A stretch of DNA of 36,108 bases from Candidatus Thermoplasmatota archaeon (GTDB lineage Archaea; Thermoplasmatota; Thermoplasmata; UBA10834), in contig JAHIZT010000080.1 of NCBI GenBank assembly GCA_018814355.1, forward strand, positions 1-36,108, read 5' to 3'. A model generated the notes under the pieces. That model did not search any database. It saw nothing but the letters and a program-made list of their open reading frames with translations, and was not told the origin of the DNA. Below are positions 225 to 9,442 of this stretch, piece by piece. The position numbers and the translations under genes are program-made. Position 1 is the first letter of the stretch. Every line of letters begins with the position of its first letter.

Positions 225-602
225 TCACTTGCCAAGGAGACTCTGGACCTCCTTGCCCTTCTCGATCTCGGTGACCTTGACCTTGAACGGCGCCTTTTTC
301 TTCAGCGCCTCCCTCGCGAACCTCTGGCAGTTCGGGTACGTGCAGGGGGAGCATTTCTCGTCCTTGCAAGACAGTTCGATCAGCACGAGCCTCTCCCTTG
401 TGTCATGGGGCTTTGCAATAGGCTTCTTGATCTCGAACATCTTCGTCATGCGGGTCTCGAACGGCATCTTCTTGGGTACAGTCCTGACGAACCGCTGGCA
501 GCTCGGGTACGTGCACGGAGAGCACTTCCGGTCCCTGCATGATAATTCGACCAGGAGGTATCTTTCCTCACCTTTTGGCGCTTTATGTTCTTGTGCTTTC
601 AT
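225..602 (-). CDS. Small protein of two tandem four-cysteine repeats, last gene of the Hdr operon
   Basis: I do not recognise the family. The 125-residue protein is a tandem duplication. Each copy has the pattern SC-x4-C-SPC-TYP-x-C-QRF, with cysteines 22, 27, 30 and 35 in copy one and 79, 84, 87 and 92 in copy two, each followed by a basic stretch. Four cysteines per repeat suggest binding of zinc or an Fe-S cluster; that is inference. There is no signal peptide or membrane segment, so it should be cytoplasmic. An ATG at 611 in the same frame would add three residues, but AAGGATGA is better spaced for the ATG at 602. It lies about 20 bp after the MvhD-HdrD fusion gene and is probably co-transcribed, suggesting an accessory role for the Hdr complex. 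Confidence 0.75.
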   Translation of the reverse strand: MKAQEHKAPKGEERYLLVELSCRDRKCSPCTYPSCQRFVRTVPKKMPFETRMTKMFEIKKPIAKPHDTRERLVLIELSCKDEKCSPCTYPNCQRFAREALKKKAPFKVKVTEIEKGKEVQSLLGK

Positions 603-623
603 TTCTCTCATCCTTCCCTTTCT

Positions 624-2222
624 TCATTCGAGCGCGTCTGCGATGACCACGCTCAGGTCCTTGACTGGAATGTCGATCTGTTCCTTGGGCACCTGGGTCT
701 TGAACTCCAGGGTGCAGTTCAGGTGTATGAGGCACTTGTAACAGCCCGTCACGAGGCATTCGGCGCCTGTCTTCTTGGCCTCCCTAAGCTTGTCGATCTG
801 CAACTTCCTGGATGTCTCGTCGCAGGTCGCCCATGCACTCACGCCGCAACATAGGGCCTTGTCCCTCGTGTTCTCCATCTCGACTACTTGAGCATCCGCG
901 CCCTTGAGGGCGTTCCTCGGCGGGTCGTATATGCCGAGGTGCCTTCCCAGCCTGCACGAATCCTGGAAAGTGACCTTCTTGGCGCCCTTCTTGAACTTGA
1001 GTTTCCCCTCCTGGATGAGGTCGTAGACTAACTCGGATATGTGAACGATCTCGAAGTCGAAGTCGCCCATCAGGTCCTGGTAGTCCATGTTGAAGGTCCG
1101 CATGCACTCGGGGCACGAGAACACGACCTTCTTGGCCCCGGACGCCTTGATCAGCTCTACGTTCTTCTTCATCAGCTTCTGGAGATTCGCCTCGTCCCCC
1201 GTCCAGTTCAGGTCATGCCCGCAGCATACCTCGTTGTTGCTGACGACCGGGACGATTCCGCCCCTGTTCATGATCTTCACCGCCGCTCGCGGTATCGCTG
1301 ACAAGTTGAGGTTCTTCCGCTCTTTGAATATCGAATCGTAATATGACACGCAGCCAGTGAAGTAGAAGATATCTCCCTTCTCGGCAATCTTGAGTTCGGG
1401 TATCATCCAGTCCAGCCTGTTCTGCTTCAGGTTGCTGACGGCCTGGATCCTCATGACGGACTGCATCAGTCCGCCCTGGGAGCACACCGGCACGTTGTTG
1501 AACTCGACCGCTTCGTTCCTCATGCCTCTTATGAAGCCGGAGTAGTCGACCTTGTACGGACACATCGAGTTGCACTGCTCGCATGTGACGCAGGTCCAGA
1601 CGTCCTTGTTGGTCTGGACGTTCTCCACGAGCCCCTCGCTCGCCTTGAGGACGACGGTCCTGGGAGCGAAGTCGGGGTTGTACTTTGCAACCGGGCACAC
1701 GGTGGTGCACTTCCCGCACTCCACGCAGTCGAACGCGCCAGTGTCCTCGATGATCTGGTTCATCTTCTCCTTCAGATTCCCTGGGTTGCCCTTCTTCTTG
1801 GGGGACGCCTTGGGGAGCGGGTTCGGACCGAGCTTCCTGATCTGCTCCGTGAACTCCTTCATGGTGCTGGCGAACTTCTGCCCCTCGGAGGCGGATATCC
1901 ACTCGAGCCTCATCCGGTCCCTGCCGAGCCCTAGTTTGTCGAGGACCTCGGCCGTCATCGCCATCCTCTTCTCGGCCTCCTCGTTCCCGGAGATGTAGTG
2001 GCAGTCGCCTATGTGGCAGCCGGCCACGAGGACGCCGTCGGCCCCGAGCTCCAGGGCCTTGAATATGAAGTACGGTTCGACCCTTCCCGAGCACATGACC
2101 CTGATGATCCTGGCGTTCGGCGGATACTGCATCCTAGACACCCCCGCCAGGTCCGCGCCAGCGTACGAGCACCAGTTGCAGCAGAAGGCGACGATGCTCG
2201 GTTCGAACTTCGCGTCCGTCAT
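624..2222 (-). CDS. MvhD-HdrD fusion protein (electron transfer adaptor plus CCG-domain reductase)
   Basis: The 532-residue protein joins two functions. Residues 1-135 are MvhD-like, with cysteines CC14-15, C18, C44, C70 and C74 expected to hold a [2Fe-2S] cluster and pass electrons from a hydrogenase or dehydrogenase to HdrA. A linker of about 30 residues follows. Residues 166-221 hold two [4Fe-4S] motifs (C166, C169, C172, C176 and C211, C214, C217, C221), as in HdrC. The rest carries two CCG domains (C291, CC333-334, C370, C373; then C423, CC458-459, C494, C497), as in the catalytic half of HdrD. Related CCG domains in HdrB and HdrD bind the non-cubane clusters that cleave disulfides; the substrate here is unknown. 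The start overlaps the preceding stop as ATGA and has a GGAGG site. Confidence 0.9.
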   Translation of the reverse strand: MTDAKFEPSIVAFCCNWCSYAGADLAGVSRMQYPPNARIIRVMCSGRVEPYFIFKALELGADGVLVAGCHIGDCHYISGNEEAEKRMAMTAEVLDKLGLGRDRMRLEWISASEGQKFASTMKEFTEQIRKLGPNPLPKASPKKKGNPGNLKEKMNQIIEDTGAFDCVECGKCTTVCPVAKYNPDFAPRTVVLKASEGLVENVQTNKDVWTCVTCEQCNSMCPYKVDYSGFIRGMRNEAVEFNNVPVCSQGGLMQSVMRIQAVSNLKQNRLDWMIPELKIAEKGDIFYFTGCVSYYDSIFKERKNLNLSAIPRAAVKIMNRGGIVPVVSNNEVCCGHDLNWTGDEANLQKLMKKNVELIKASGAKKVVFSCPECMRTFNMDYQDLMGDFDFEIVHISELVYDLIQEGKLKFKKGAKKVTFQDSCRLGRHLGIYDPPRNALKGADAQVVEMENTRDKALCCGVSAWATCDETSRKLQIDKLREAKKTGAECLVTGCYKCLIHLNCTLEFKTQVPKEQIDIPVKDLSVVIADALE

Positions 2223-5200
2223 GTCCCCGCCTCCTCCTTCTCAAGGTCCTTCTTGAGGCACGCCTCGATCATGGTCAGTATCTGCTCGGTCTTGAAATGC
2301 TTCGGGCTGATTGCTCTCGCACAGCATTCGACCGCGCACGAGCCACACCCTTTGCAAAGCGCTTCGTTGATCCTTGACTTGAAGATTCCCGGGGAGACCT
2401 CGACGATGCTGGGCGCGCCGTACTCGCAGATCTCCTCGCACCGGCCGCACGTGATGCACTTGTCCTCATCGACGACGCTCACGACGCCATCGGCCTCGAT
2501 GAACTCCTTGGACAGGACGGTGTTGACCCTCGCCGCTGCTGCCAGCGCCTGCGATATGCTCTCGCCTATCAGCCTGGGAGAGTGCGCGAGCCCGCACAGG
2601 AATATCCCGTCCGTCGCGAAGTCAACGGGCCTGAGCTTCATGTGTGCCTCCAGGAAGTACCCTTCCTTGTTCAGGGGCACCTTGAGCAGCTTCGCCAGGT
2701 CCTTGTTGTCCGGGTTCGGGTGCGTCGCCGCGTTCAGGACCAGGTAGTCGGCGACTATCTTGACGCCCTGCTCTATGAACTGCTCCGTCACCTCGACCTC
2801 CAGCTGGTCGCCCTTCGCGGTGACCTTCGGGGGCGACTCGGGATCGTACCTCAGGAATGTGACGCCCAGCCGTGCGGCCTCGTTGTAGTGCTCCTCCCTG
2901 AACCCGTAGGTCCTGATGTCCCTGTAGAGGATGTACACGCTGGTGTCCGGGTGATCCTGCTTGATCTTGATCGCGTTCGCCATGGCCGTTGAGCAGCATA
3001 GACGGGAACAGTTCGGGTGCTCCTCGTTCCTCGAACCGATGCACTGGATGATGACGACGCTCTTCGCCTTCAGCTTCCCGTGGGCAAGCATCGTCCCCAG
3101 CTCGGTCTGCTTGATGACCCTCTTGTGTTTGCCGTGGAGGTACTCCGTCGGCTCGTACTCAATGGCCCCGCTGGCGACGACTATCGCGCCGTGCTTGATC
3201 TTCTCGCCGCTCTTGAGTGTGGATTCGAAGTTGCCGATGTATCCCTTGAGCTCGGCTACGTTGTCGTTGAGATGGATTTTGACGTTCTCGTTCTCCTGGA
3301 TCTCCTTCTTCAGGCGCTTGAGCAGGTCCTGCGGATCGATCCCGGACAGCGTTTGGTAGATGCTCCTCAGATGGCCCCCCAGCTCCTTGTCCTTATCGAC
3401 CAGGTGGACCTCGTATCCCGCATTGGCGATCTCCAGTGCCGCCGCCATGCCGCTGAGCCCTCCGCCTATGACCAGCGCGGACGGGGTCACGGGTATCTTC
3501 GGCTGCGGGAGCGGCTCCAGCATCGCCGCTTTCGCCACCGACATGCGGACCAGGTCCTTGGCCTTCTGCGTGGCCTTCTCCGGCTCCAGCCTGTGCACCC
3601 ACGAGCATTGGTCCCTGATGTTGGCCATCTCGAACAGGTACTTGTTCAGGCCGGCCTCCCTGCAGGTGTTCTGGAACAGCGGCTCGTGCGTTCTCGGGGT
3701 GCAGCTCGCGACCACGACCCTGTTCAGGTCGTGCTTCTCGATCATCTCCTTGATCTTCTTCTGCGTGTCGCCCGAGCACGTGTACAGGTTCCTCTCGGTG
3801 TAGACCACGTTCGGCAGCTTTGATGCGTACTCTAGGACCTCCGGCACGTTCACCACGGAGCCGATGTTGATCCCGCAGTGGCACACGAACACGCCGATCC
3901 GTGGTTCCTTCTTCGACACGTCCTTCTCCGCTGGATACTCCTTCTTCTTGACGAGCGTTCCCCGCTCCTTGGACAGCATCGCCGCGACCTTTCCGGCGGC
4001 GCCGCTGGCCTGCGCGATCGAGTCCGGGATGTCCTTCGGGCCAGAGAATGCCCCGCAAACGAAAATCCCTGGCACCGAAGTCTCCACGGGAGCTAGATCG
4101 TCTGTCTCGCAGAATCCGAACTTGTTGAGCTGGATGCCGATCGTCTTTGCCATGTCCGCAGCGGACGCGGGCGGCCCCGCGCCTGCCGCGAGGACCACGA
4201 GATCGAACTCCTCGTCCTCCAGCTCGGCCCCCGCGTGATATGTGACTATGAGGTTGTTCGTCTTCGGGTCCTCCGTCACCTTCGGGACCCGGTTGTTCCT
4301 GGCGATCCTGACGCCGTACTCGTTCTCGGCCCTCATCAGGTACTCCTCGAACTCTTTTCCGAAGGCCCTGGTGTCCATGAAGAATATCGCGGTCTTCAGC
4401 CCGGGCACATGCTCTTGGCCTATGACCGCCTGCTTGATCGCCGCCATGCAGCAGTAGGATGAGCAGTAGGTGTTGCCGGTCTGCGCGTCCCTCGAGCCGA
4501 CGCACTGTATGAACGCGATCCTCCTGGGCACATCGCCGTCCGAGGGCCTGATTATGTGGCCCTCAGTTGGACCAGAGGCGCTGAGCATCCTCTCGAACTC
4601 GATGTTCGTGAGAACGTTCGGGAACACGCCGAGCCCGTACTCGACCTTCTTCGTGGCGTCGAACACGCTGAACCCCGGGCTGAGGATGATCGACCCCACC
4701 TCGATCACCTCCTCCTTGTCCGGCTCCATCGAGTACTGGATGGCCTTCGCTTCGCAGAACTTCTCGCACTCGCCGCAACCGATGCACAGCCCGCGAGAGA
4801 TGGTGTACACGAGGGGCACAGCCTGGGGGAAGGGCACGTAGATGGCCCTCGCAGGCGCCATGTCCCTGTCGAATGCGTTGACGCCCTCGATCGGACAGTG
4901 CTCGGCGCAGACACCGCAACCTGTGCACTTGTCCTCGAGTACGTATCTGGAATGCTTAGTAATCGTGACCTTGAAGTCGCCCGCCTTTCCCTCGACCTTC
5001 TTGAGCTCGGCGTGCGTCAGCATCGTGATGTTCTCGTGCCTGCCAGTCGCGACGAGCTTCGGAGAGACGATGCACATGGCGCAGTCGTTGGTCGGGAAGG
5101 TCTTGTCCAGTTGGGCCATGGTGCCGCCTATGCTTGGCTCCGATTCGAGTATGTAGACCTTGTATCCGGAGTCGGCCAGGTCCAGCGCGGCCTGCATGCC

Positions 5201-5254
5201 CGCAGGCCCTCCGCCGATGACGAGCGCGGCTCCAACGGTCCTGTCATCACTCAT
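2219..5254 (-). CDS. hdrA: Double HdrA-type flavoprotein (HdrA-HdrA fusion)
   Basis: HdrA is the FAD-carrying, electron-bifurcating subunit of heterodisulfide reductase complexes. This 1011-residue protein holds two HdrA units. Unit one (1-445) begins directly at the Rossmann motif GGGPAG (14-19) and keeps the inserted ferredoxin domain (C110, C113, C116, C120; C157, C160, C163, C167). Residues 451-590 match the HdrA N-terminal domain (CHCG at 458-461, C493, C518, C550). Unit two follows with GGGLSG at 597-602, has no inserted ferredoxin domain, and ends in two [4Fe-4S] motifs (C933, C936, C939, C943; C967, C970, C973, C977). The halves are thus complementary rather than redundant. Start: ATG overlapping the end of mvhD, with GGAGG upstream. 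It may bifurcate at one or both flavins; the sequence does not settle this. Confidence 0.92.
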
Positions 5255-5699
5255 CCTGCACCGCCTCCTTGGAGATGGGACCGAGCTTTTCCAGCTCCGC
5301 GACCATCTTCTTGATAGTCTCAGCGAACTTCCCGCCCTCCGAGCCTGCGATCCACTCCAGCTTGAACCTCTGGGGTTCTATGCCCGCCTCATCCAGAAAA
5401 TTGTTCAGGAAGTTCCCACGCATGGCTGCCTTGTCGTTTCCGTTGATATAGTGGCAGTCCGCTGGGTGGCAGCCGGCGACTATGACCCCGTCAGCGCCAA
5501 GGGCGTAGGCCTTCAGGACGAAGGACGGGTCCACCCTGCCGGAACACATGACCCTGATGATTCTGACGTTGGGCGGATACTGCAGCCTCGTAGTGCCCGC
5601 AAGGTCTGCTCCCGCGTACGAGCACCAGTTGCAGCAGAACGCAACGATCTTCGGCTCGTACGCCGATTCGTGCTCTTCTCTCTGCGCCCCCGACTCCAT
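5247..5699 (-). CDS. mvhD: MvhD-type [2Fe-2S] electron transfer subunit
   Basis: MvhD links an electron donor (MvhAG hydrogenase in methanogens, formate dehydrogenase in others) to HdrA. The 150-residue protein has the family cysteines FCCNWC (C22, C23, C26), C52, C77 and C82 and is of usual length. It closely resembles the N-terminal domain of the MvhD-HdrD fusion in the same operon (shared [25 protein letters not shown] and AGCH motifs), so the operon contains two copies that probably arose by duplication. It sits between hdrB (two-base gap) and the double hdrA, which it overlaps by eight bases. Confidence 0.92.
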
Positions 5700-5701
5700 G
5701 A

Positions 5702-6628
5702 TTAGGCCCCCCTGACTTTCCTGAGGAACGAGTGAGCGGATACGTGGTGAGTGTCGAAGCCCAGCGAGATCGGGTCAATGCCCATCGCAAGCGCTTGGAA
5801 CTGGGACACGTGCATGACTGGGATGCCATCCTTCGAGAACGATTTCTGGGCGTTGTCGAACTGCAGCAGGCAGAACGGGCAGCCCGTGACGATGCAATCG
5901 GCTCCTGCGGCCGCTATGTTCCTGCACTTGTCCTCCGTCAGCGAGTTGGCAAGCTCGACGACGTGGGATCTCACTCCCCCGCCGGCGCCGCAGCAATCCA
6001 GCCTGTCTTCGTAATCGACGCTTGTTGCGCCGCACGCCTCCACAATCTTGTCAATCATCACGGGGTCGTTCGGGTCGTCGAAGGCCGCATGCTCCGTCGG
6101 CCTAAGGTAATGGCAGCCATAGTGGACAGCCGCCCTGATGTTCTTGAGCTGGTGATTCGCCTTCTTCGAGATCTCGTCCAATCCGACATCCTTGGCCATA
6201 ACCTCGACGTAGTGCCGGACCTTGACCGGCTCGAAGATCTTCCTCTTGGTCTCCGATTTCTGCGGTATGCCTGTGTACTTCTTCCCGATCTGCGAGAGGA
6301 CCCTGTTGACCTTGCCCAGGTTCTTGGGCTCCTTGAGGTATTCCGTCGCCTTGAGCAGGGATGCGAGACAGCCGTTGCAGATCGTGAGTATCTGCCTCCG
6401 CTCGTTCTGGGCGAGCACCAGGTTCCTAGCGGCCAGGAGTAGCCATGTGTCCTTGTCAGTCGAGTAGAAGATGCCTGGCACGGGGCAACATGAGAAATCC
6501 TTCTGGTCCTTGACATCCAGGTTGAAGCCCTCCTTCCCGGTCACCCATCTGACTGCGCACTCGATGCCCGGGTACCTGTTAGGTATGACGCATCCGAAGA
6601 AGTAGACGAATCCGTTGGAGTTGGTCAA
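5702..6628 (-). CDS. hdrB: Heterodisulfide reductase subunit B
   Basis: HdrB is the catalytic subunit of soluble heterodisulfide reductase and binds two non-cubane [4Fe-4S] clusters where a disulfide such as CoM-S-S-CoB is cleaved. The 308-residue protein has both cysteine sets: C13, CC47-48, C84, C87, and C172, CC212-213, C250, C253. The length is normal. The start overlaps the hdrC stop by four bases (ATGA), so translation is likely coupled. Lineages without coenzymes M and B use such modules on other, often unidentified, disulfides; the window cannot say which applies here. Confidence 0.93.
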
Positions 6629-7215
6629 ACCCTCACCTCATCTTGGATGCCAATGAGCTTGTCGTACTTCGACGCGTGCACGAGCACCTGTATCTCCTTG
6701 ATGATCGCTTGGTACTCAGGGTCGTGTGAGTGGATCGGATTGAGCCCGAGCTCTTTTCTGATTTTGTCGATCTCGGGGTCTGGCTTGACGCTCTGGCCGT
6801 ACTTCACCAGGTTCGTCACGGCAGTCTTGACGAACGGTGGGATTATGCCCTCTCTGACTGCGATGTGCCTCAGGGCGATCATTATATCGGCCGGGTTCAG
6901 GTCCGCCGGACAGTGCTCGTAGCACCTGTAGCAGGTCGCGCAGACCCATCTTGTGCCGAGCGTGTACTTCTTGAGCCCGAACTGGCAGCACTTGATGATG
7001 TTCCTTGTCTTGTAGTCGATCTTGAGGCTGATCGGGCAGACGCCGGTACAGTTGCCGCATTGGAGGCATGTCATCACGTCCTTGCCGCCGTATTTCTGTA
7101 TCAGGGCCGGGAAGTCGGGCTCGAGCTGGCTCTCGTCGATGATCTTGTCCTCCACCAGCTCCTCGTGGAGACCTCCTATGAAGACCTTCTCGACCTCCTT
7201 CTCCGGGTCCTTCAT
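6625..7215 (-). CDS. hdrC: Heterodisulfide reductase subunit C
   Basis: HdrC carries two [4Fe-4S] clusters that move electrons from HdrA to HdrB. The 196-residue protein shows both motifs, C50, C53, C56, C60 and C92, C95, C98, C102, the second within CATCYRCYEHCP. Its length is normal and it has no membrane segment, so it belongs to the soluble HdrABC type. The ATG overlaps the hdrA stop (ATGA), with GGAGGTGA just upstream inside hdrA. Gene order hdrA-hdrC-hdrB-mvhD describes one complete module. Confidence 0.93.
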   Translation of the reverse strand: MKDPEKEVEKVFIGGLHEELVEDKIIDESQLEPDFPALIQKYGGKDVMTCLQCGNCTGVCPISLKIDYKTRNIIKCCQFGLKKYTLGTRWVCATCYRCYEHCPADLNPADIMIALRHIAVREGIIPPFVKTAVTNLVKYGQSVKPDPEIDKIRKELGLNPIHSHDPEYQAIIKEIQVLVHASKYDKLIGIQDEVRV

Positions 7216-9305
7216 GGTGTCACCTCCGCCTCTGCCTTCTTCTTGACAGCGTGCTTCCTGGTTGTCTCCGTCAACGCCGCCTGGATCTCTGAGTAGATCT
7301 GATCATCAGTGAACTGCATCGGCGCGATGGCCTTCTGGGGGCACGATGCAGCGCAGGTGCCGCAGCCATGGCAGAGCGCCTCGATCACGTGCGCCTTCAT
7401 GCCGCCCTTGACTCCCGGGACCAGCTCGGGGGCACTGTACGGGCACAACTCCAGGCACAGGCCGCAGCCCTGGCACAGGTCCTCGTTCACGATTGCGGTC
7501 AAGGGTTCTATGCTGACCTTCTTTGCGAACATGGGCGCGGCAGCGGAGGAGGCCGCAGCCTTCGCCTGGGCCACGCTATCCGGTATGTCCTTCGGGCTCT
7601 GGGCGCACCCGGCCAGATAGATCCCGTCCATGGCCGTGTCAACGGGTCTCAGCTTCGGGTGGGCCTCCATAAAGAACCCGTCCGGACTCTGTGTGAGGCT
7701 CAGGATCTTCCCGATTCTCTTGCTCCCCTCGGAAGGTATGAGCCCGGTCGACAGCACGACGAGGTCGAACACCCTCTCCGTGATCTTGTTGAGAAGGGTT
7801 TCCTCGGCGCGGATCTTGATGTTCTTGGTCTCCGGGTCCTGGGTGAGCTTGGCAGGCCTCCCCCTGATGAACTCGACGTCGTAGTCTTCTCTAATCCTGT
7901 GGTAGAGCTCCTCGAAACCCTTGCCGAACGCCCTGATATCATTGTAATATACAGCGATGTGCGTCTCAGGCTCGTGCTCCATTACTATTTGCGCGTTCTT
8001 GATCGCGTACATGCAGCAGACTCTGGAGCAGTAATTGTTCCCGATCTTCTTGTTCCTCGAGCCGACGCATTGGATGAACGCGATCCTCTTGGGCACATTG
8101 CCGTCTGAAGGCCTGATCAGGTGACCCGCGGTCGGCCCAGAGGCGTTCAACAGCCTCTCGAGCTCGAGGCCTGTGATGACGTTGTCATACTCCCAGTACT
8201 TGTAGACGCCCTTCTTCATGGGCACATAGGTGTCGAAGCCAGTGGCGACGATGATAGTTCCCACTTTCAGCGTCAGGAGATCGTCCTTCATGTCATGGTC
8301 AATGGCCTTGTTCGAGCACGCCTTGACGCAGAGCAGGCACTTGCCCGACTTGAAGTGCAGGCAGTGTTCCTTGTCGATGGTGTACTTCAGAGGCACGGCC
8401 TGCGGGAACGGGACATAGACTGCCTTCCGCTGGCCAAACCCGAGGTCGAACTCGTTGTCCACTTTGACGGGACAGGCATCCGAGCAAAGGCCGCATCCGA
8501 CACATTTGTCCTCAACGACGAACCTGGCCTTGCGTCGGACCTTGACCTCGAAATTGCCGATGTAGCCCTTGACCTCCTCGACATCGGAATATGAGAGTAG
8601 TGTGATGTTGGGGTTCCTCGCCAGCTCGACCATCTTGGGCGCGAGGATGCAGATCGCGCAGTCGCCCGTCGGGAACGTCTTGTCCAGCTGGGCCATCTTG
8701 CCGCCGATGCTTGGCTGCGTCTCGACCAGGTAGACCCTGAAGCCCATGTTCCCGAGGTCGATGGCGGCCTGGATGCCCGCAACGCCTCCTCCGATCACGA
8801 GCGAAACCGGCTCGACGGGGACCTCTCTGGCCTCGAGCGGCTGGAGCCTAGCGGCCTTTGAAACGCCCATCCGGATAAGGTCGGAGGCCTTCTCGGTGGC
8901 CTTCTCCTTCTCGTGTGAATGGACCCATGAGCATTGTTCCCGGATGTTGACCATCTGTAGAAGGCACTGGTTCAGGCCGGCCTGCTGGATGCACTTCCTG
9001 AAGGTCGGTTCGTGGAGTCTGGGAGAACATGATGCCACGACCACGCGCTGGACGCCGTTCTCTCTGATGGCCTTGATGATCTCCTCCTGGCCGAGATCGG
9101 AGCAGGTGTACTTGTTCTCCCTCGCCACGACCACGCCGGGTAGCTTCTCCGCGTCCTCCCGGACCTTGCCGCAGTCCACGACTCCAGCAATGTTGCTGCC
9201 GCAATGGCAGACGAAAACACCAATCCTTGGCCCGGTGGTGCTGCCGGATTCTTTCGTAGGAGCGCTTGTTCCAACATCCTTGTCCTGCGGTGCGGGTGCG
9301 GTCAT
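7212..9305 (-). CDS. hdrA: Heterodisulfide reductase subunit A, first gene of the operon
   Basis: HdrA binds FAD and several [4Fe-4S] clusters and splits electron pairs between ferredoxin and HdrBC. This 697-residue copy is complete: N-terminal domain at 27-160 (CHCG at 33-36, C68, C93, C125), Rossmann motif GGGVAG at 172-177, inserted ferredoxin domain (C268, C271, C274, C278; C315, C323, C326, C330) and C-terminal ferredoxin domain (C611, C614, C617, C621; C645, C648, C651, C655). The frame is open for 23 more codons to an ATG at 9374. I chose 9305 because GGGAGGTGGGAC directly precedes it and the family homology begins only at residue 27. The leader of about 25 residues rich in Pro, Ser and Thr looks disordered. 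Confidence 0.93.
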   Translation of the reverse strand: MTAPAPQDKDVGTSAPTKESGSTTGPRIGVFVCHCGSNIAGVVDCGKVREDAEKLPGVVVARENKYTCSDLGQEEIIKAIRENGVQRVVVASCSPRLHEPTFRKCIQQAGLNQCLLQMVNIREQCSWVHSHEKEKATEKASDLIRMGVSKAARLQPLEAREVPVEPVSLVIGGGVAGIQAAIDLGNMGFRVYLVETQPSIGGKMAQLDKTFPTGDCAICILAPKMVELARNPNITLLSYSDVEEVKGYIGNFEVKVRRKARFVVEDKCVGCGLCSDACPVKVDNEFDLGFGQRKAVYVPFPQAVPLKYTIDKEHCLHFKSGKCLLCVKACSNKAIDHDMKDDLLTLKVGTIIVATGFDTYVPMKKGVYKYWEYDNVITGLELERLLNASGPTAGHLIRPSDGNVPKRIAFIQCVGSRNKKIGNNYCSRVCCMYAIKNAQIVMEHEPETHIAVYYNDIRAFGKGFEELYHRIREDYDVEFIRGRPAKLTQDPETKNIKIRAEETLLNKITERVFDLVVLSTGLIPSEGSKRIGKILSLTQSPDGFFMEAHPKLRPVDTAMDGIYLAGCAQSPKDIPDSVAQAKAAASSAAAPMFAKKVSIEPLTAIVNEDLCQGCGLCLELCPYSAPELVPGVKGGMKAHVIEALCHGCGTCAASCPQKAIAPMQFTDDQIYSEIQAALTETTRKHAVKKKAEAEVTP

Positions 9306-9442
9306 GTCCCACCTCCCTCGATTCAGGCTAGACGGTTCTCGACCGGCTCGAGTGACCCCGCGAAAGGTCGCCAATCTTGGCTATCTGGCGCATCCACTCG
9401 GTCCCATTGATGGTCTGACGTTTTTGGATAATAAGACGGCTA

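Follow-up and report, generated by a model that had tools for sequence, protein, structure and literature searches.

The window, a stretch of 36,108 nucleotides from contig JAHIZT010000080.1 (G000:C80 in our numbering) of a Candidatus Thermoplasmatota archaeon, carries a gene run in the order hypB-F-C-A-D, hdrA, hdrC, hdrB, mvhD, a tandem hdrA and an mvhD-hdrB/D fusion, with a four-cysteine gene as the last gene on the contig, which ends 224 nt beyond it. The hyp names and several of the hdr names are those that we presume from the translations. The features that matter here are as follows:

225-611, minus strand: two-module four-cysteine protein, 128 aa (125 aa from the start at 602), pI 9.6, 15 kDa
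252-392, minus strand: module 2, residues 74-120, cysteine core at 327-368; sub-threshold PF04060 match at residues 87-108
414-563, minus strand: module 1, residues 17-66, cysteine core at 498-539
624-2222, minus strand: MvhD-HdrB/D fusion, 532 aa, with Pfam FlpD and Fer4_17/Fer4_8 (4Fe-4S dicluster) matches and two CCG stretches
2219-5254, minus strand: tandem HdrA, type II-like, 1011 aa, from its translation and homology to other HdrA-like ORFs
5247-5699, minus strand: MvhD (FlpD) subunit, by Pfam domain match
5702-6628, minus strand: HdrB-like subunit, from its translation and what we take to be HdrB features; other loci have orthologues in this order
6625-7215, minus strand: HdrC-like subunit, from its translation and what we take to be HdrC features; orthologues in other loci
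7212-9374, minus strand: HdrA-like subunit, from its translation and what we take to be HdrA features; orthologues in other loci

The four-cysteine gene lies 12-21 nt downstream of the fusion, and the FlpD, dicluster and CCG features of that upstream ORF bear out the earlier note, which had placed the gene right after an MvhD-HdrD fusion. A start at position 602 is likelier than the ATG at 611, because this methionine (Met4) is the start common to most homologues. The protein consists of a short N-terminus followed by two modules, in which cysteines 25/30/33/38 and 82/87/90/95 form the pattern C-x4-C-x2-C-x4-C twice, as had been described for the ORF at 225-602, which shares its frame with 225-611. 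Each module reads approximately R-Y-L-L-V-E-L-S-C-x4-C-x-P-C-T-Y-P-N-C-Q-R-F and continues into a basic stretch; the whole protein has 31 K+R against 17 D+E. The earlier description of the modules as near-identical holds for the core CSPCTYP[SN]CQRF but not for the modules as a whole, which share 55% protein identity; at the DNA level, the gene contains a repeat of 106 nt with 72% identity.

The window ORF is a real, conserved protein gene under strong purifying selection, with dN/dS values of 0.088-0.235 against seven relatives. Ten homologues retrieved by protein similarity keep all eight cysteines without exception, and the four cysteines of the module are kept in 58 of 58 distinct modules recovered by a profile search of all fetched loci (E <= 0.01, no motif filter), with a profile that itself rewards cysteine. 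The 58 modules serve as the unfiltered check on a separate alignment, whose 45 modules were collected with a four-cysteine filter and are therefore invariant by construction. Variable cysteines, which the earlier note would have counted against its reading, were thus not seen.

In fetched operons that reach far enough, the gene order is HdrB/D, four-cysteine gene, X431, X623, MvhD-like gene, tandem HdrA and MvhD, where X431 denotes the short HdrA encoded next after the four-cysteine gene and X623 the second HdrA half. MvhG/MvhA-like hydrogenase genes often come after the final MvhD. This placement of the four-cysteine gene, between HdrB/D and X431 or an HdrA-like gene, recurs in eight families, which belong to at least two classes. 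Because the start codons are uncertain, intergenic distances are approximate: candidate starts mostly lie -65 to +26 nt from the HdrB/D stop (49-192 nt in G403, G348 and G414), and the gap to X431 is about 27-200 nt. Members have one module in families f15 and f39 and in genome G043, and two in the others; since either number occurs, the module is the likely functional unit.

We searched samples of 400 genomes of the class and 389 genomes of the phylum with profiles, including one for the single repeat, as the earlier note had suggested. The module profile matches 28 of the 400 class genomes: 24 carry an Hdr-type protein, 10 a single-module form of about 50 aa, and 6 both. HdrB/D (the fusion or an HdrB/D half, E <= 1e-100) occurs in 38 of the 400, among them 24 of the 24 genomes with the Hdr-type protein. 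Within these 24 genomes there are 26 Hdr-type copies, 24 of which (23 genomes) abut HdrB/D, the copy in G354 being placed from profile-match coordinates alone. One copy (G300:C149) belongs to an Hdr operon that lacks HdrB/D, where it is flanked by a tandem HdrA and X431, and another, with two modules (G107:C47; L058:7911-8444), lies outside any Hdr operon and overlaps a SUKH/SMI1-type gene. G002, a genome with 6% contamination, has its second copy on contig C100; this contig, which may be a contaminant, carries an X431 that groups with family f30. Outside the class, two genomes of the phylum sample (G403 and G414) carry a single-module form that follows HdrB/D and is itself followed by an HdrA-like gene. 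Four weak matches (E 0.006-0.01; G120, G432, G498 and G531) were treated as probable chance hits and are not counted. An exact scan of 84,980 GTDB species genomes for the core peptides C[SN]PCTYPN and PCTYPNCQ, a search that divergent relatives would escape, yielded 34 stretches, of which 27 were confirmed, at 26 loci; by their titles, all are Thermoplasmata/Thermoplasmatota, Methanomassiliicoccales or 'Euryarchaeota' MAGs.

The expected co-occurrence with the MvhD-HdrD fusion stands only in part. The gene is tied to the Hdr operon, but the fusion itself is not the correlate, because the gene follows HdrB/D whether this is fused to MvhD or separate. A distribution mainly over unrelated contexts, which the earlier note had named as evidence against its view, is not what we found.

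HdrB/D occurs without the four-cysteine gene in 14 genomes of the class sample. In the six genomes of genus g3, the gene is absent from all six fetched operons, and the fusion is 74-77% identical to that of the window. The X431 of this genus is 901 aa long and carries a GltD-like insert (PF14691 + Pyr_redox_2) beside its ferredoxin motifs:

L098:12190-14895, L099:2394-5099, L100:11714-14419, L136:3507-6212, L137:12740-15445, L138:2985-5690: type III-like HdrA, genus g3

The insert and the four-cysteine gene exclude each other: the insert is found in none of 21 operons with the gene and in 6 of 10 without it, although the g3 genomes form one clade and so probably represent one event and one data point. 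In our trees, the stem of the X431 core is 0.34 in g3, whereas HdrB/D from these genomes has one of 0.088, which indicates that X431 underwent a sharp change where the gene disappeared. G083, G199 and one of the two G300 operons have X431 right after HdrB/D and neither gene nor insert; the four-cysteine protein is thus dispensable. Other cases are more varied: X431 is further from HdrB/D in G034, the contig of G006 stops just after the fusion, G010 and G020 have a different Hdr arrangement, the fetched stretch of G044 has the HdrB/D-X431 pair without the gene, and G026, whose locus is outside the fetched set, was counted from the profile searches. The presence label requires three changes on the X431 tree and on the HdrB/D tree (the latter without the second HdrB/D row of G083, 15398), a number fitting an early gain with repeated loss.

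Two explanations for this pattern were rejected. The protein does not supply a ligand lost from HdrB/D or X431, as the ligand cysteines agree with and without the gene, bar one CCG position. Nor does the gene mark an intact first CCG site (CxxC versus CxxG) of HdrB/D, since G255 and G348 have both the gene and CxxG. As a separate observation, the first CCG site reads CxxG instead of CxxC in HdrB/D of G083, G199, G300:C129, G034, G255 and G348, a change that may affect the site of the non-cubane cluster.

The single-module relative has a second context that is invisible from the window alone, beside iscS/iscU/pyrDK and cysteine genes. Nine of the 10 class genomes with the ~50-aa form have it at a locus with pyrK and/or iscS/iscU, which, where the contig reaches, runs sufS-like, iscS, iscU, pyrD, pyrK, single-module gene, HMGL-like synthase, cysK, cysE and cysS. 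At another locus, in G255, the gene is 5' of dsrE2-iscS-iscU on the same strand.

L061:5477-5629, L062:7971-8117, L064:7983-8132, L066:3647-3799, L109:8422-8589: ~50-aa single-module proteins beside iscS/iscU/pyrDK/cysteine genes or dsrE2-iscS-iscU

The single-module gene is not a fixed part of the ISC-pyrDK locus, as none was found near pyrK in 14 of 14 genomes checked, that of the window included (the G019 locus stops directly behind pyrK).

Among Pfam families, the window protein matches the FeS domain PF04060 best (20.5 bits, E 3.9e-4), at a score below the gathering cut-off of 23 bits; the domain matches 13 of 19 members at E <= 0.1, and profile-profile comparison (hhalign) gives a probability of 34%. 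None of 10 cysteine-preserving shuffles matches PF04060. A match of this size is nevertheless not decisive, because shuffled decoys reach similar E-values with other cysteine-rich families, for example 2.5e-4 with a zinc RING model. Zinc domains also match weakly (at E <= 0.1, IBR and Zn_Tnp_IS91 each match 10 of 19 members). The Pfam-type search of the window protein returned no FlpD, CCG, Fer4 dicluster or HdrA flavin domain, and searches of PDB chains, by sequence and by profile, stayed at chance level. AlphaFold2 models (pLDDT 42 at full length; 63 for a single module, with two helices) are too weak to be read as a fold, and Foldseek found no match to the single-module model, itself weak at pLDDT 63, at E <= 10. 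A viral origin is without support, with no match in PHROGs and no exact pattern match in viral contigs. A literature search, mostly outside subscription papers, found no description of such a protein and no 'CX4CX2CX4C'. Taken at the level of sequence, iron-sulfur is favoured over zinc as the metal centre that the module may hold.

The reading that we rank highest, with a probability of roughly 40%, is that the protein is an accessory, probably iron-sulfur, subunit or adaptor at the HdrB/D-HdrA junction; the ranking follows from the constant position of the gene next to HdrB/D, the short distance between the two and the mutual exclusion of gene and GltD insert. On this view, a small basic accessory protein would be produced along with HdrB/D and belong to a large hydrogenase-Hdr complex. 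A single metal centre, likelier an iron-sulfur cluster than zinc, is probably bound by each CxxxxCxxCTYPxCQR module, and the protein would probably sit between HdrB/D and X431 as an electron-transferring or docking adaptor; we infer metal binding and the type of metal, physical contact with Hdr, and electron transfer. A bolder version, which we put forward with considerable doubt, would make the compact four-cysteine Fe-S module, with its fourth ligand upstream compared with PF04060, an adaptor devoted to electron transfer in the giant hydrogenase-Hdr complexes of Thermoplasmata that are mostly non-methanogenic, replaced in the sister genus by a GltD-type NAD(P)H arm in HdrA, while the one-module form works with ISC/pyrDK.

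The best rival to an Hdr accessory subunit is an iron-sulfur assembly or sulfur-trafficking factor, whose Hdr-linked form would serve the cluster-rich Hdr and whose ~50-aa form would serve general ISC, because it also explains the iscS/iscU neighbourhood: two separate placements of the single-module gene near iscS/iscU are hard to obtain by chance. We nevertheless hold it unlikely, as pyrD and pyrK stand between iscU and the single-module gene at the main locus, a gap of ~450 nt separates the genes in G255, and the window genome and its close kin have the ISC-pyrDK locus without the single-module gene. Moreover, the sister genomes with a fusion 74-77% identical lack any form of the protein, so that HdrB/D can presumably be matured without it. 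The basic composition (pI 9.6, 31 K+R against 17 D+E), four cysteines within 14 residues and the weak IBR and Zn_Tnp_IS91 matches would suit a zinc-binding structural or nucleic-acid-binding protein of the small basic zinc-finger type, for example an operon regulator or assembly chaperone. That too seems to us rather improbable, since these matches are weaker than that of PF04060 and of a kind that cysteine-preserving shuffles also yield, and since a regulator need not keep one internal operon position close to HdrB/D across families. Finally, the repeated losses (three label changes on both trees) and the unlinked copy in G107 could point to an operon hitch-hiker without a role in Hdr function, but the gene is under strong purifying selection and has held its position in eight families, which makes this very unlikely.

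In many anaerobes, electrons are split through flavin-based bifurcation by Hdr complexes, whose accessory parts determine which donors and acceptors they use. The four-cysteine protein looks like an undescribed metal-binding accessory part of such an electron-splitting Hdr, judged from its sequence and gene context. A role in methanogenesis was rejected, as McrA was detected in only 4 of the 24 genomes that carry the Hdr-type form (6 of the 28 genomes searched). It was not detected in the other 20, including the window genome (97% complete), whose natural disulfide partner therefore need not be CoM-S-S-CoB. This genome combines the Hdr operon (624-9374), with several HdrA copies, and a CdhD-type gene with no detected McrA; the organism is probably not a methanogen and probably uses a pathway of the Wood-Ljungdahl type. 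An additional gene at a constant place in Hdr operons, carried mostly by archaea without mcr and absent from the clade whose HdrA acquired a GltD arm, gives direct access to the question of what supplies or drains these complexes. Should the module contain a cluster, it would also represent a new and very short cluster-binding motif.

Compared with known systems, the protein shares with the Hdr/Mvh subunits (HdrA, HdrB, HdrC, HdrD and MvhD/FlpD) its richness in cysteine and its operon but no sequence match, in line with the earlier remark that no Hdr subunit of this kind is known. To our knowledge, none of them is a 10-15 kDa protein of CxxxxCxxCxxxxC modules. The PF04060 FeS domain of RnfB and of CdhD, the CFeSP large subunit, has in common with the module C-x2-C-x4-C followed by an aromatic/Ala stretch (CxxCxYPxCxxFA) in the Pfam and hhalign alignments. 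However, its fourth cysteine lies about 16 residues downstream, where the module alignments have no conserved cysteine, and the CdhD-type domains of these genomes retain it; the cysteine 5 residues upstream in the module may replace this distal ligand. The gene context of PF04060 proteins also differs. The 901-aa HdrA of genus g3 has the same architecture as type III HdrA with an inserted GltD domain, which the accessible part of PMC12054007 describes from nine sequences of ANME-1 and Bathyarchaeota and for which it proposes use of NADH; we observe a type III-like form in Thermoplasmata, whereas that part of the paper names the type from ANME-1 and Bathyarchaeota. As described there, type III is a domain insertion within HdrA, unlike the separate small four-cysteine protein.
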